From Bernardetiaceae bacterium (GTDB lineage Bacteria > Bacteroidota > Bacteroidia > Cytophagales > Thermoflexibacteraceae), in assembly GCA_025057115.1 (NCBI GenBank), contig JANWWZ010000008.1:1-64000 (forward strand): a stretch of DNA of 64,000 bases, given 5' to 3'. How positions within the stretch are numbered: the stretch's first letter is position 1; each line of letters begins with the position of its first letter. The notes below the pieces were generated by a model. That model searched no databases. It saw nothing but the letters and a program-made list of their open reading frames with translations, and was not told the origin of the DNA. Shown here in pieces: positions 40,172 to 58,390 of the stretch. The position numbers were made by a program, and so were the translations under genes.

Positions 40172-41662
40172 TTATTTCTTGGCTTCTTGTAAAGCAGCAG
40201 AAAACTGAGGCTCGTTTGGCTTGAGTTGGTGAGCTTTTTCTAATGCTTGCAAGGCTTCTTGTTTATTTCCTTCTTTAAGGAGGATCAGTCCTAAGGTGTA
40301 GTAGGCATAGGCGTTTTCAGCATCCAGCGCGATGGAGTGAAGAGCATCTTCTCGCGCTTTAGCAGTTTGTCCCAGATGATAGCGAGCAAATGCTCGATTG
40401 CTATAAGCGTAGGCAAAATTAGGGTCTAGTTGAATTGCTCGGTTAAAGTCTTTGATTGCTTCACTATATTTTTGCATTTGGTTGTATAAGTAGCCGCGAT
40501 TGTTGAAAAAATCGGCTTGAGTAGTATCTAAACTAATGGCTTTGTTATAGTCTTTTAACGCTTCTTCAAGCTTTCCCATAGCGCGCAAGGTACGTCCTCG
40601 CAGGTCGTAGGCATACGCATTAGCAGTGTGTACTTCAAGAACTTTGTTAAGGTCAGCAAGGGCTTCGTTGAGCTTGCCAGTAACGCGATAGAGGGCGGCT
40701 CTCTCTAGCATTGCTTGTGCATGTTTGGGCTGTTGAGCTAACACAGCGGTAAAGTCAGCAATAGCAGCTTCGTAGTTTTTATCAGCGCGGTGGGCTTTTG
40801 CACGCGCAAGCAAAGTATGCACTGCTTTAGGCTGGAGGCTTAAAATTTTATTGTAGTCCCTGATTGCCTCTTTATACTGCTCTAAATTCATTAAAATAGC
40901 AGCTCTTGCTTGCAGGGCACTTATATCATTAGGGTCTAATTTTAAATACGCATCATAGTCGGGCAGGGCTTCTTTAGGACCTTTGGCATTAGACTTTAGT
41001 TCAGCGCGGTAATAGTAAGCCATTTTCTCTCGCGGATCGAGGGCAATTGCTTTGTCAAAATCCTGCATAGCCGCATCGTAATCTCCTTCTATGCTGTAAA
41101 TAAAACCGCGACGTACATAAGCCAGCGCATAATTAGGAGTAAGGCTAATTAATTTGGAATAGTTTTGCTTGGCGGCTTCAAAATCTTTAGCGGCTTCCAG
41201 GCAAATCCCGCGATTGATGTAGGCTTTTTTAAGTCCTTCTATATCGCGTTGCGCTGAAGCAACCGAGATAAAGCTATTATAGTGCTTGATGGCTTCTTTG
41301 TAACGCTTAAGTCCAAAATTGGCATTGGCTGCGTTGAAATAGTAAATAGGCTCGTAGTCGGTTTGCAGTTTGCGTTTGGCTTTCTCTTGTTCGTAGTTGA
41401 TGAGGGCTCTGTTGTAGTCAGCAAGGGCTTCTTCGTATTTTCCCAATCGTTCATATGCCATGCCGCGACTGTTGTAAACAATGAAATTTTCTTTCAACTT
41501 GAGCGACTCTGTATAGCTGGCAATAGCAGCTTCGTATTTGCCTGCACGCATTAGGCGTTCGCCTTGTTCGAAAAAAAATTTTGTTTTAAGTTGAGCTTGC
41601 AAACTGAGGGATATTCCTCCTATCACTGCTGATGCTAATATTTTTTGCAAAACACTCTTCAT
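40172..41662 (-). CDS. Exported TPR-repeat protein
   Basis: 496 aa from the ATG giving MKSVLQKILASAVIGGISLS, a signal peptide ending LQAQ (residue 24). About twelve TPR units follow, regular and close to consensus (for example YNRALINYEQEK, FDKAIALDPREKMAYYYRAE, FNRAIQLDPNFAYAYSNRAF), ending near the C-terminus. It is probably a periplasmic protein-interaction scaffold. The reading frame continues upstream to 41722, but that part is leftover parA coding sequence fused by a 1-bp deletion in a duplicated segment, so it is not counted. The first ~73 bases are duplicated at 42277-42349. Confidence 0.87.
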   Translation of the reverse strand: MKSVLQKILASAVIGGISLSLQAQLKTKFFFEQGERLMRAGKYEAAIASYTESLKLKENFIVYNSRGMAYERLGKYEEALADYNRALINYEQEKAKRKLQTDYEPIYYFNAANANFGLKRYKEAIKHYNSFISVASAQRDIEGLKKAYINRGICLEAAKDFEAAKQNYSKLISLTPNYALAYVRRGFIYSIEGDYDAAMQDFDKAIALDPREKMAYYYRAELKSNAKGPKEALPDYDAYLKLDPNDISALQARAAILMNLEQYKEAIRDYNKILSLQPKAVHTLLARAKAHRADKNYEAAIADFTAVLAQQPKHAQAMLERAALYRVTGKLNEALADLNKVLEVHTANAYAYDLRGRTLRAMGKLEEALKDYNKAISLDTTQADFFNNRGYLYNQMQKYSEAIKDFNRAIQLDPNFAYAYSNRAFARYHLGQTAKAREDALHSIALDAENAYAYYTLGLILLKEGNKQEALQALEKAHQLKPNEPQFSAALQEAKK

Positions 41663-41779
41663 GGTGCAAAGTGTCATGGTTTTGGTTTTTGTCATGGATT
41701 TGTCATGAAAATATCGTTCCAACTTAAATAAGCACTTGAGTCGAAACTCATCAAAATAACGGTTGAATTCATCTTTGTT
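41590..41779. repeat. Direct repeat copy A: tpr 5' end plus parA 3' end
   Basis: This 190-bp segment matches 42277-42456 at about 93% by eye: roughly 11 substitutions, an 11-bp insertion here (GTCATG occurs twice) and a 1-bp deletion. It holds the functional start of the TPR gene and a non-functional copy of the last 16 or so codons of parA. The pair brackets the palindromic array 41780-42276; offset between copies is 687 bp. Confidence 0.85.
41722..41779 (-). pseudogene. parA 3'-end fragment
   Basis: Read on the minus strand this gives NKDEFNRYFDEFRLKC, identical to the C-terminus of the ParA protein encoded at 42400-43062. A missing base removes the parA stop, so the frame runs on towards the TPR gene. 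It has no start and is a by-product of the local duplication. Confidence 0.8.
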
Positions 41780-42276
41780 GCCCTTGTTCGTGTCTTCACG
41801 AACAAGACACCTTGCTCATGTTTTGAAAAACAACGCAGTAGCGTGGCAGCAAGTGTCTTTGGAAAGTGTAAAATAAAGCTAAATTTTTTGGCTTTCCTTC
41901 ACTTTTTGCGTTAATCACAAGCCGTTATTCGTGAGGACCGAACAACGGCAAGGATAGTTGTTCGTGGGGACACGAACAACGGCAAGGAAAAAATCCGCTG
42001 CTTTTTCGCCCTTGTTCGTGTCTTCACGAACAAGGCGTCTTGTTCGTGTTTTGAAAAACAACGCAGTAGCGTGGCAGCAAGTGTCTTTGGAAAGTGTAAA
42101 ATAAAGCCAAATTTTTCGGCTTTCCTCCACTTTTTGTGTTAATCACAAGCCGTTATTCGTGAGGACCGAACAACAGCAAGGATAGTTGTTCGTGGGGACA
42201 CGAACAACGGCAGGGAGTGAGGACCGAACAACGGCAGGGGTAGTTGTTTGTGAGGACGCGAACAACGGCAGGGAGG
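41780..42276 (+). repeat. Palindromic repeat array, locus 1
   Basis: Two units of about 200-230 bp (41780-42007 and 42008-42215) plus a partial third. Each unit opens with a hairpin CTTGTTCGTG/CACGAACAAG (41783-41806; 42011-42034), continues with TTGAAAAACAACGCAG, a nested hairpin AAAGTG..AAAGC..GCTTT..CACTTT (41863-41905), TTAATCACAAGCC, and ends in the second hairpin GTTGTTCGTG/CACGAACAAC (41957-41980; 42185-42208) followed by CGGCAAGG or CGGCAGGG. A decayed hairpin with wobble pairs lies at 42243-42266. No gene is present. Confidence 0.85.
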
Positions 42277-42456
42277 GTTGAGCTTACAAACTGGGGGATA
42301 TTCCTCCTACTACTGCTGATGCTAATATTTTTTGCAAAACACTCTTCATAGTGCAAAGTGCCATAGTTTTGGTTTTTGTCATGAAAATATTAATCCAACC
42401 TAAATAAAGCACTTGAGCCGAAACTCATCAAAATAACGGTTGAATTCATCTTTGTT
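42277..42456. repeat. Direct repeat copy B: tpr 5' fragment plus parA 3' end
   Basis: 180-bp partner of 41590-41779. Here the parA end is the functional one and the TPR start is the dead one. The copies join the array exactly on its two sides, so the whole 41590-42456 block has the form A - array - A'. Confidence 0.85.
42284..42349 (-). pseudogene. TPR-protein 5' fragment with nonsense codon
   Basis: On the minus strand it begins at an ATG (42349) and reads MKSVLQKILASAVVGGISPS then Leu, then TAA. In the intact gene at 41662 that stop position is the CAA codon of Gln22 (SLQAQ). It is a 21-codon signal-peptide remnant ended by a C to T change and cannot encode a TPR protein. Confidence 0.8.
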
Positions 42457-43062
42457 ATCTGCTGGGTTGGCAATGTCTTTGTAGGTAGAAACGCCGCGTT
42501 TGTACCGCACAAGGTTAGAAAGGGTAGAATAGAACAACTCCATGCCTCCAATTCCTGCAAGTTTGGAAAGATGTTTGTACTCTATACTTTGGTCTTGTTT
42601 GTTGATGACGCCGTAAACCTCTAAGGGTTTAAAGGGTCTTTCTTTTTTGAGCTCAGGCAGTTGTTCTAAAAAATTCGTAGTAGCATTGATATCCAACTGA
42701 CTGGCTACAATAGGTACAATCAGAATATCAGAAGCTAAAATACTGTAGTAAATTGGAGGATCGGTAATTCTTCCGGGAGGTAGGTCCATGAAAATGATAT
42801 CGTACTTGCGCTTGGCAAGAGTAAGAACGCGGTCAAAATATTCCTGTGGGTTAGGTTGTGCCCAGTTAATGGCAAATACGTCAAACGATTTGGGGTTATT
42901 CTCCTGCAGAAAGATTTGTTTTACAGAAAGTTGAGGGTCGGAGTCTATCACTAGAAGTTTTTTATTAGTGCGGTTGTGAATAGCAGCGGCAGTAAGCATC
43001 AGCAATGTGGTTTTGCCTGAACCGCCTTTCAGGGTTACAAACGAAATAACCTTTACGCTCAT
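42400..43062 (-). CDS. Orphan ParA/MinD-family ATPase
   Basis: 220 aa. Deviant Walker A KGGSGKTTLL (residues 12-21) with the signature Lys, a Walker A' at LLVIDSDPQLS, and Walker B DIIFMDLPPGRITDPP. This is the small ParA form without the N-terminal HTH of plasmid ParA. ParA proteins use ATP-driven DNA or membrane gradients to place cargo such as plasmids, chemosensory arrays or gliding parts. There is no parB, parS or cargo gene next to it, so the partner is unknown. Its 3' end borders the repeat array and is duplicated. Confidence 0.88.
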   Translation of the reverse strand: MSVKVISFVTLKGGSGKTTLLMLTAAAIHNRTNKKLLVIDSDPQLSVKQIFLQENNPKSFDVFAINWAQPNPQEYFDRVLTLAKRKYDIIFMDLPPGRITDPPIYYSILASDILIVPIVASQLDINATTNFLEQLPELKKERPFKPLEVYGVINKQDQSIEYKHLSKLAGIGGMELFYSTLSNLVRYKRGVSTYKDIANPADNKDEFNRYFDEFRLKCFI

Positions 43063-53255: not shown

Positions 53256-53984
53256 GAAAATCCGTTGCCAAAGTTCTTAAAGTTCCAGCAGCGAATGGGT
53301 GCTTTATGCAAAAATTGCGTAGGTTTTAGTAATTGCTTAGGTTTTTACAAGGTCGTTTTTCGCCCTCGTTCGTGTCTTCACGCTTATCCTTCGCCATTTC
53401 GCCCTTGTTCATGTCTCCACGAACAATGAATGTACTTCGCCATTGTTCGTGTCTCCACGAACAATGTACTTTGTGTCCAAGTGGTTGTTCGTGAGGACAC
53501 GAACAACGGCAAGGAAATGTACTTTGTGTCTTGAAAACAGCCCAGCAGCGGGTATGTTCTTCGCCATTGTTCGTGTCTTTACGCTTATCCTTCGCTTTTT
53601 CGCCATTGTTCGTGTCTCCACGAACAATGTACTTTGTGTCTCACGAGTGGTTGTTCGTGAGGACACGAACAACGGCAAGGAGGTTTTTACAAGGTCGTTT
53701 TTCGCCCTCGTTCGTGTCTTCACGCTTATCCTTCGCTTTTTCGCCATTGTTCGTGTCTCCACGAACAATGTACTTTGTGTCTCACAAGTGGTTGTTCGTG
53801 AGGACACCAACAACGGCAAGGAAATGTACTTTGTGTCTTGAAAACAGCCCAGCAGCGGGTATGTTCTTTTTAATCACAAGTAGTTGTTCGTGAGGACAAC
53901 GGCAAGGAGAAAATCCGCTGCTAGAGTTCTTAAAAACCCCGGCAGCGGATGAGTGTTTTATGGAAAAAATCGCGTAGGTTTTAG
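53256..53984 (+). repeat. Palindromic repeat array, locus 2
   Basis: A 729-bp block between the LysM and fbp genes. Core units repeat with a 342-bp period: TTTTTACAAGGTCGTTTTTC starts at 53342 and 53684. Hairpins CATTGTTCGTG/CACGAACAATG occur at 53441-53466, 53604-53629 and 53745-53770, and GTTGTTCGTG/CACGAACAAC at 53484-53507 and 53650-53673, with one-mismatch and half copies at 53791-53814 and 53882. Similar segments bracket it: 53256-53329 and 53909-53984 (~80%), each able to fold as ATCCGYTGC...GCAGCGRAT. Two open frames across it are repeat artefacts. Confidence 0.85.
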
Positions 53985-56290: not shown

Positions 56291-57952
56291 ATGACCGCTT
56301 ACGAGCTCGAGCAAGAATTTAGCCATTTTATTGAATTTGGTGGCGTATTTGACAGACCAGTGCGCACCTTCTTAGTACACTACATTCATGCCCGCCTTAC
56401 GGGAACAGGCATCAGCTCTTATCAAATACAACACCTATTGCAAAATCAACAAAGCCAATATTTCGCCTATTTGCAAAAAGCGCTAGATAAAATACTCGGC
56501 TTTCCGCTGCTTCAGGAAGTTTGTGCAAATAATGAGCAACTTACTCAACAAATTATACAAGATGTACTGAAGTGGATGCGCCAAACTGATAAAAAAATCA
56601 ACTCAAAAAACCCTTATCAGAATGAAAATGATATGTTTGGCGCATGGAGTCATAAACCTACGCATCTTTGGGTAGAAACTTGGCACGTATTGATTAATTT
56701 TTTAGCCAATACCTACACGCGAGAGGAGCTTGACAAAGATTTCTATGCCTATAGGTTTAAAACATTGCTCTCTGACAAAGAATTGCTTCAAAAAGCTCGT
56801 CAAATCATTCCCTCCAATGTACCTGCTCAAGAAAAGTCGCTTCTGGATATCCTCATCGATGACCTGCTTGCCCAGTGGAACGCCTTGCTAACTGCTAAGA
56901 ATTTGCGCTACTACATGGAAGAAATGGAGCAAGAACAAGAGCAGTTTGCCGAGTTGTTACATAAAAAAGTAGAAGAATTTCACAAACTGATGACGCTAAT
57001 TAATCCATTTGTAATGGAAATTAGCAATTTCTGGGATTTGAGCCGCGGCTTGTGGAAGGATAAAGGTTTCCATGTACTGGAGCACTACCATCGGCTTTTA
57101 GCTGATGAGAAATCGATTCAGCAACTTGCCGACCTGCTAGGGCGCATGCGCCAAGCTCAAACCGAAGTGGAAGAAGAGATTTTCTGCCAAACCGTAGTGC
57201 AAAAACAATGGCAAACTAATCCCCATTTGCGCAATGAAGTAGCTGGACTGTGGGAGAGCAGCGACCTTTGCCGCGTATTACCTTCGGAACTGGCTCTTTT
57301 GGGGCACAAAGAAACCGAGCCTTTGTTCTTGCAAAAGTATGCCGATAAGAGGTTGCTCACTTATCAATTACAAGGCAAACAACTAGTGCCAAACGACAAA
57401 ATTTCTTTCACAGCTCACCGACGTGAAAAGCGAAAAGAAAAAGGTCCTTTCATCCTTTGCATCGATACCAGCGGCAGCATGGAGGGGTTGCCTTCCCAAA
57501 TTGCCAAAGTGCTTTGCTTTGCAATGATGAAAGTGGCAGCTAAAGAACACCGAAAATGCTACCTAATCTCCTTTTCTATTGGCATCAAAACCATTAACTT
57601 GCTCAATATTGCTGAAAATATTGATAAAATCATAGATTTTTTAAGCATGTCGTTTGATGGCGGCACGGATATTACCCCTGCTTTATCTGAAGCTCTTAAC
57701 ATGTTGCAAACCCGCGACTACAAAGAAGCTGACGTAATGATTGTGTCGGATTTTGTCATGTTTGATATCAACCAGCATTTACTGCGCCGCATTGAGCAAG
57801 AACAAGCGCGCGGCACCAAATTTCATAGCTTGACCCTGTCCAACAAACCCAACTTGCAAGTTATCCGCCAGTTTGATAATTACTGGGTATATGACCCTCA
57901 AGAGCGCAACATCATGCGCTTGCTTTGGGAAGATCTCAAGAATTTGCAATAA
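56291..57952 (+). CDS. VWA-domain protein, ViaA/CoxE-like
   Basis: 553 aa, cytoplasmic. The C-terminal ~200 residues form a von Willebrand A domain with MIDAS motif CIDTSGSMEGLP (about residues 391-402), the second MIDAS Thr in FDGGTDITPAL and the DFVMF Asp. The N-terminal ~380 residues are alpha-helical, as in ViaA, the partner of the MoxR AAA+ ATPase RavA. No ravA is adjacent, so it may be an orphan or pair with a distant gene. Its last codons are duplicated at 58156-58221 beyond a short palindromic array. Confidence 0.82.
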   Translation: MTAYELEQEFSHFIEFGGVFDRPVRTFLVHYIHARLTGTGISSYQIQHLLQNQQSQYFAYLQKALDKILGFPLLQEVCANNEQLTQQIIQDVLKWMRQTDKKINSKNPYQNENDMFGAWSHKPTHLWVETWHVLINFLANTYTREELDKDFYAYRFKTLLSDKELLQKARQIIPSNVPAQEKSLLDILIDDLLAQWNALLTAKNLRYYMEEMEQEQEQFAELLHKKVEEFHKLMTLINPFVMEISNFWDLSRGLWKDKGFHVLEHYHRLLADEKSIQQLADLLGRMRQAQTEVEEEIFCQTVVQKQWQTNPHLRNEVAGLWESSDLCRVLPSELALLGHKETEPLFLQKYADKRLLTYQLQGKQLVPNDKISFTAHRREKRKEKGPFILCIDTSGSMEGLPSQIAKVLCFAMMKVAAKEHRKCYLISFSIGIKTINLLNIAENIDKIIDFLSMSFDGGTDITPALSEALNMLQTRDYKEADVMIVSDFVMFDINQHLLRRIEQEQARGTKFHSLTLSNKPNLQVIRQFDNYWVYDPQERNIMRLLWEDLKNLQ

Positions 57953-57960
57953 AGTTTTTA

Positions 57961-58154
57961 GCAGTGGACTATATTTTTATAAGGTCATTTTTTGCCATTG
58001 TTTGTGTCTTTGGGAAGAATTCGCCATCGTTATTCATTTCTTGAAAAATGACTCAGCAGAGCAGCATAGTTTCTTTGAAAAGCATAAAAAATTATGCTTT
58101 CTCGGTTCATCCTTACTCACAAATGGTTGTTTGTAAAGACACGAACAACGGCAT
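57961..58154 (+). repeat. Palindromic repeat array, locus 3 (degenerate single unit)
   Basis: One decayed unit in the same orientation as the other arrays: TTTTTATAAGGTC opening (as at 53342), GCCATTGTTTGTGTCTT, TTGAAAAATGACTCAGCAG, a perfect 9-bp hairpin AAAGCATAA/TTATGCTTT (58079-58100, loop AAAA) at the site of the nested hairpin of locus 1, and the end hairpin GTTGTTTGTA/CACGAACAAC (58126-58149) followed by CGGCATGG. The 438-bp viaA-pfkA gap otherwise holds only the duplicated viaA end and the pfkA leader. Confidence 0.75.
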
Positions 58155-58155
58155 G

Positions 58156-58221
58156 GTATATGCCCCCCAAGAGCGCAGCATCGTGTGCCTGTTTTGGGAA
58201 AATCTCAAGAAATTACAATAA
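58156..58221 (+). pseudogene. Duplicated 3' end of the VWA gene
   Basis: Encodes VYAPQERSIVCLFWENLKK, Leu, Gln and stop, matching VYDPQERNIMRLLWEDLKN, Leu, Gln and stop at the end of the gene 56291-57952. Copies 57886-57960 and 58155-58229 align without gaps (offset 269 bp, ~84% by eye). The fragment has no start. Most changes are at codon third positions or conservative, but the piece is too short to claim selection. Confidence 0.8.
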
Positions 58222-58390
58222 AGTTCTTAAAATCTCTTCTTAGTTGCAGATTTATTAACAAACTCACTTGATTTTTAAAGTTTTTACAACAAGTGCGATA
58301 AATCTGAGCCCATTCATTCGCTAAAACCGAGAATTTTTTCAATTTTGCACCATTACCATCAGTAAAAAAACCGTGATAGGTAAACCTGTA

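Follow-up and report, generated by a model that had tools for sequence, protein, structure and literature searches.

A dispersed foldback element with long, variable flanking duplications in a Bernardetiaceae genome

A short, hairpin-rich repeat is dispersed through the source genome (G000; 3.0 Mb, 86 contigs), and 15 of its 36 testable copies are enclosed by locus-specific direct duplications of 26–190 bp. The ends of these duplications coincide with the ends of the element, and empty sites are present in congeners at two loci. The best explanation, which we consider probable, is the insertion of a foldback element by staggered joining and fill-in that leaves a long target-site duplication of variable length. 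The repeat arrays are, as part of the same probable explanation, insertions of a non-autonomous, protein-less element of ~150–215 bp whose units often lie in tandem. The length of a target-site duplication tells how an element integrates. Repeated duplications of 26–190 bp without detected RVT_1, Y1, rve, or Ku point to an enzyme or to replication errors driven by the element.

The duplicated parA/TPR junction and its empty site

The window, i.e., the whole stretch of 64,000 nucleotides analyzed, comprises the first 64 kb of contig C85 and contains three element loci. The first one lies at the junction of two genes that encode a ParA/MinD-type ATPase and a TPR protein.

40172–41662, minus strand: TPR-repeat protein gene, start MKSVLQ..., with a presumed signal peptide
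41590–41779, no strand: left target-site duplication copy of locus 1, 190 bp, with the functional TPR 5' end and a frameshifted parA 3' end
41780–42276, plus strand: inserted element of locus 1, 497 bp, two tandem ~228-bp units and extra 3' hairpin units
42277–42456, no strand: right duplication copy of locus 1, 180 bp, with a dead TPR 5' end (stop) and the functional parA 3' end
42400–43062, minus strand: ParA/MinD-type ATPase gene, domains AAA_31 and CbiA

The 190 bp at 41590–41779 occur again as 180 bp at 42277–42456, 687 bp away from start to start, and the 497 bp between them are rich in hairpins and palindromes. A single gapped alignment of the two copies spans 191 columns with 87% identity. 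By substitutions only, 167 of 179 aligned positions are identical (93.3%), in addition to 12 gapped columns, which agrees with the ~93% over a 190-bp segment given by an earlier, sequence-only reading. The core of the array is a repeat pair at 41773–41988 and 42001–42216 that is 94% alike. The duplication is not a chance occurrence, since the segment has only two matches genome-wide, both at locus 1 (BLAST, 86 contigs, E ≤ 0.01), and the 10 short-range direct repeats of the window (≥26 bp, gap <1500, ≥36 bits) all fall within the three element loci or flank them.

The duplicated segment holds the 5' end of the TPR gene and the 3' end of parA. The left copy carries the working TPR start and a frameshifted parA end (...FRLKCLFK vs ...FRLKCFI*). 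The working parA end is found in the right copy, next to a dead TPR start that reads MKSVLQKILASAVVGGISPSL* and stops within the presumed signal peptide; the dead halves are thus those that had been described from the sequence.

Three genomes of the same genus (G001, G002, and G003) were compared at their parA loci (L002, L004, and L003, respectively). All three show the TPR gene directly after parA, without array or duplication, which is the unduplicated arrangement that had been expected in relatives. The last parA codon and TPR residue 16 are separated by 41 bp in L002 and L003 vs 726 bp at locus 1. This extra length of 685 bp is within 2 bp of the 687 bp (497 + 190) expected from an insertion with duplication. 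In G002, the match begins at TPR residue 26, and an extrapolated distance of 35 bp gives a length difference of 691 bp. Each congener has one parA match of this type in the loci around parA, with the TPR gene beside it and no space for an array, and this single adjacent pair rules out two separate gene pairs as the source of the dead halves. The ancestral TPR start had been placed about 30 bp past the parA stop, a distance that applies only to an upstream in-frame ATG, whereas the start matching the congeners (MK...) lies ~50–60 bp away (52 bp in L002).

The comparison supports one ancestral parA–TPR junction that was duplicated, with the array between the copies, as had been proposed. A one-off tandem duplication that later received an array is not supported, since 14 further copies of the element show the same arrangement with other flanks and with coinciding ends. 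The sequence-only picture is right yet too local, as the array belongs to a dispersed foldback-element family.

A second empty site was found for L065, where a sigma-54 response regulator gene and a DUF2480 gene form a divergent pair that is adjacent in all three congeners. The duplication at this locus spans the starts of both genes, and the extra length of 298 bp (vs G002 and G003) is 14 bp short of the 312 bp (236 + 76) expected. For L058, the left neighbor is absent from the congener loci fetched, and the comparison is uninformative.

The other two element loci of the window are composed as follows.

53256–53329, no strand: left duplication copy of the second locus, 74 bp
53330–53908, plus strand: inserted array of the second locus, 579 bp
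53909–53984, no strand: right duplication copy of the second locus, 76 bp, 83.8% identity by substitutions
57886–57960, no strand: left duplication copy of the third locus, 75 bp, with the 3' end of the upstream gene (...NIMRLLWEDLKNLQ*)
57961–58154, plus strand: single element of the third locus, 194 bp, the cleanest insertion of the window
58155–58229, no strand: right duplication copy of the third locus, 75 bp, 85.3% identity

Thirteen bases of the array spacer of locus 1 (41990–42002, AAAATCCGCTGCT) recur close to where the right copy of the second locus begins (53910–53922), as if array DNA had been copied over along with some flank.

Anatomy of the element and duplications across the genome

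Genome-wide, at least 63 + 61 palindrome sites (at least 124, with up to 3 mismatches) were counted, and the reversed control pattern occurred 0 times. The typed consensus unit received at least 183 BLAST matches, many of them within the same arrays. Aligned units measure roughly 150–190 nt and lack the leader in most cases, and no genes were recognized by eye in the inserts. In one orientation, the more complete copies consist of a leader like GTAGTTGCTTAGGTTTTTATAAGGTCATTTTT, a palindrome starting with TGCC (like TGCCATTGTTCGTGTCTTCACGAACAAT), a middle that varies in length, and a complementary palindrome that ends near AACAACGGCA (the end is also given as AACAACGGCAAGGA). The palindromes are inverted. 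In these copies, the leader (~32 bp) is external to the 5' palindrome, and several others have lost one end. A gene-bearing transposon between two arrays on contig C25 was considered and rejected, as its ORFs resemble ordinary host genes by eye. Contigs C11, C12, C15, C25, and C86 end in or near arrays, so more copies may hide in assembly gaps. Direct repeats with a period of ~126 bp and ~70% identity were observed at L136 (4–1061), at a distance of about 1 kb from a degenerate copy of the element, and possibly belong to a repeat-protein gene.

One 228-bp unit folds at −88.5 kcal/mol vs −57.0 kcal/mol (sd 3.9) for shuffled sequences (z −8.0). Covariation is nearly absent, with both sides changed at 1 of 29 pairs in an alignment of 15 units, and no RNA function is claimed on this account, despite the strong fold of the single unit. 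Among Rfam covariance models searched in the window, only a tRNA reached the gathering threshold, with no match for the repeat. The short palindrome stems vary pairwise (CCGTG/CACGG, TTGTG/CACAA), and two-sided changes exceeded independence at 3 of 9 pairs (41 own loci, 229 sites); such paired changes could also stem from gene conversion or palindrome correction.

Flanking duplications were scored for 41 loci, comprising the 3 clusters of the window, 27 clusters among the matches listed, and 11 single or partial copies obtained with the typed consensus. Both flanks were available for 36 of them, as L059, L062, L063, L069, and L077 lacked one flank and were dropped. For each of the 15 duplications, 2 or fewer of the 1446 mismatched-flank controls scored as high. 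Scores of at least 42 were obtained for 14 of the 36 copies and for none of 2000 pseudo-insertions placed at random in the window; the fifteenth duplication, at L055, scored 39, a value reached by 5 of 2000 pseudo-insertions. L072, with a score of 36 that 7 of 1446 controls attained, is not among the 15, and 21 of the 36 copies in G000 show no significant flanking duplication. A first flank pass with stricter scoring had yielded 11 clusters with duplications out of 30 (BLAST) and 9 clear cases out of 26.

The 15 duplications are 73.5–97.9% identical by substitutions, and their lengths fall into no clear classes. Given this range of identity, the insertions seem to be of different ages and spread over time. 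The identity at locus 1 had been read as a sign of a recent event; at 93%, it is mid-range among the 15, with K of ~0.07 vs 0.02–0.33 over all of them, and does not single out this insertion as recent. An assembly artefact is unlikely, since the copies differ by 2–27% substitutions and the 15 loci lie inside contigs. According to mechanical ORF calls, the duplications reach gene ends at W1, W3, L056, L058, L065, and L068. The 3' end of a single ORF is included in the duplication at W3, L056, and L068, and both neighbors are touched at L058.

The ends of the element were called per locus from matches to other loci only (leave-one-out, with L069 outside the comparison set), which corrects for the presence of inserts from 7 tested loci in the element library of the duplication scoring. 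In 13 of the 15 loci, the element ends lie no more than 15 bp from the duplication ends on both sides, with L058 (27 bp) and L143 (51 and 16 bp) as exceptions. Matches to other loci averaged 0–2.2 in the duplication copies and 7.5–23.4 in the inserts. Flanks that differ between loci around a common insert are the signature of insertion with target-site duplication. Element-like letters extend up to 14 bp into some duplications. A leader-like 5' end was recognized by eye in 8 of the 15 insertions, of which 4 terminate precisely at YTA in the target, and another 2 only with a boundary shift of one base. YTA makes up 3.2% of the trinucleotides of the window, which gives a chance of 6e-5 for at least 4 of 8 with a motif picked after looking, and the apparent junction motif is weak.

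Integration of the element and alternative explanations

Duplication and insertion look like one event, because the arrangement of locus 1 recurs at the 14 further copies and the duplications end where the element ends. We infer a staggered joining by an enzyme that acts on the element in trans. The element would be joined to the two target strands at points 26–190 nt apart, and fill-in between the staggered joins would leave the element flanked by long direct duplications of variable length. At locus 1, the stretch between the joins would have spanned the parA end and the TPR start, so that each gene would keep a whole copy and the spare halves would decay. Long duplications of this kind show how both genes can stay intact when an insertion lands between closely packed neighbors or in a divergent promoter region.

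A mobilizing enzyme was sought with domain searches at E ≤ 0.001. No matches were obtained in G000 for RVT_1 (control positive in 3 of 14 known genomes) or Y1_Tnp (5 of 14), none for rve in G000 (E ≤ 0.001; control positive in 6 of 14) or the three congeners, and none for Ku in any of these four genomes (1 of 14). No mobilizer was thus found among RVT_1, Y1, and rve, the transposition families searched. The missing mobilizer and the 21 copies that lack a duplication count against the proposed event. The position of the leader outside the inverted repeats and the truncation of several copies at one end would also be odd for an ordinary transposon. A mobile repeat with its own, undescribed integration is tentatively conceivable, in which joins spaced by tens of nucleotides up to almost 200 nt, possibly with a preference for YTA at one junction only, produce long duplications that keep the neighbors whole and let the element spread in a compact genome, and in which arrays may grow by self-landing.

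The main rival is template switching during replication, which gives the same products and is judged rather unlikely. A stalled fork would copy an ectopic element and return upstream of its exit point, yielding a duplication and a templated insert with no dedicated transposition enzyme. This agrees with the duplication lengths lacking clear classes, with the missing RVT_1, Y1, and rve genes, and with the strong single-strand fold of the repeat (z −8.0). The truncations of some copies at one end and the element-like letters at the edges of some duplications may also reflect microhomology. However, every short-range duplication detected in the window lies around the element, and a leader end common to several copies suggests defined ends. 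An enzyme and a replication error would be distinguishable at the junctions of new insertions.

Target-primed retrotransposition, in which the element, as an RNA, would be copied into a nick of the target in a non-LTR-like manner, is improbable. It would yield the variable long duplications, the truncated ends, tandem units at one end, and a possible motif at one junction only, but no RVT_1 was detected in the genome at E ≤ 0.001; a lost or borrowed enzyme is still conceivable. Still more doubtful is an ordinary tandem duplication followed by a later, independent insertion of the array at the copy junction. The order of events at one locus is unreadable from one genome, yet the junction would need to have been hit at 15 loci with different flanks, no comparable short-range duplication free of an array was found in the window, and the two 228-bp units (94%) have diverged to a similar extent as the duplication (93.3%). 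The least credible explanation is non-homologous end joining in which a staggered break would be filled in and joined with repeat DNA captured as filler, since Ku is missing at E ≤ 0.001 from G000 and the three congeners and the choice of this element as filler stays unexplained, even though fill-in at staggered breaks in mammalian cells yields small, Ku80-dependent tandem duplications according to the available part of PMC8355091.

Comparison with known systems and occurrence in other genomes

Compared with known systems, the element resembles a MITE in being short, without coding capacity, and present in many dispersed copies. The target-site duplications of MITEs are generally short and fixed, whereas those found here measure 26–190 bp at 15 of 36 copies. 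Inverted palindromes are present, but the ~32-bp leader lies outside the 5' one, and no parent insertion sequence was found with the RVT_1, Y1_Tnp, and rve searches. The element works like a MITE, yet departs from its short fixed duplication, and there is a real chance of a new integration mechanism. REP and REPIN sequences are paired palindromes that are dispersed, non-autonomous, and associated with RAYT transposases. The element shares the first three of these features, but G000 gave 0 matches for a Y1 (HUH) RAYT transposase. Non-LTR retrotransposons and SINEs show duplications of variable length and end truncation. Both are seen in the element, with 0 RVT_1 matches in G000 as the difference. 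Cardinium is a member of the Cytophagales and carries MITECca01.

MITECca01 is a MITE of IS982 origin and is similar in its length (~200–240 bp), absence of genes, inverted repeats with palindromic letters, and many dispersed copies; the accessible part of that source makes no mention of duplications (PMC9769881). For REP and REPIN sequences, long duplications are likewise not mentioned in the part of PMC3116915 that was available. Fungal mitochondrial double-hairpin elements are short, potentially mobile two-hairpin units as well, but are mitochondrial, and the available text gives no mention of long duplications (PMC10085805). The IS1202/IS481 group is comparable in its longer-than-usual, variable duplications, which for IS1202 fall into classes of 5–6, 15–17, and 24–29 bp in the accessible part of PMC10045372. 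The duplications described here (26–190 bp) form no clear classes, and no rve domain was found in the genome. They exceed the documented bacterial range, the longest documented DDE duplications being those of 24–29 bp of IS1202, as far as the accessible text goes (PMC10045372). A literature search that covered titles and the openings of abstracts, with subscription journals mostly outside, returned no bacterial element with such long duplications, and none of four palindrome strings was found in the literature searched.

Among 59 genomes, with up to 15 candidates scored per genome, the middle pattern occurred in G000 (27 matches) and G002 (7 matches). Under the flank scoring applied to G000, none of 25 testable loci from other genomes reached 42, with a best score of 34 (5 of 30 loci lacked a flank), and the evidence for long duplications therefore comes from one genome. 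A direct repeat at L158 of G002 (33 bp, 85%), which overlaps the element itself, was excluded from the count. At L115, L120, L121, and L166 of G002, units like GCGTGCAACGGC form short tandem runs next to the same palindromes, a different form of array growth.

The 228-bp unit had no match among plasmids and phages at E 1e-5, and the exact middle pattern was in none of the viral contigs. Exact occurrences of the short palindrome GTTCGTGNNGACACGAACAAYGGC were found in Arcicella rosea, Pedobacter zeae, a Flavobacterium MAG, and Chitinophagales and Cytophagales MAGs (L101, L103, L105, L110, and others). At the loci of other Bacteroidota that were compared, the match to the consensus is mostly limited to the palindromes. 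The palindrome was also found in one viral contig, L156 (IMGVR_UViG_3300020045_017019), which carries two opposite palindrome sites 36 bp apart from start to start.
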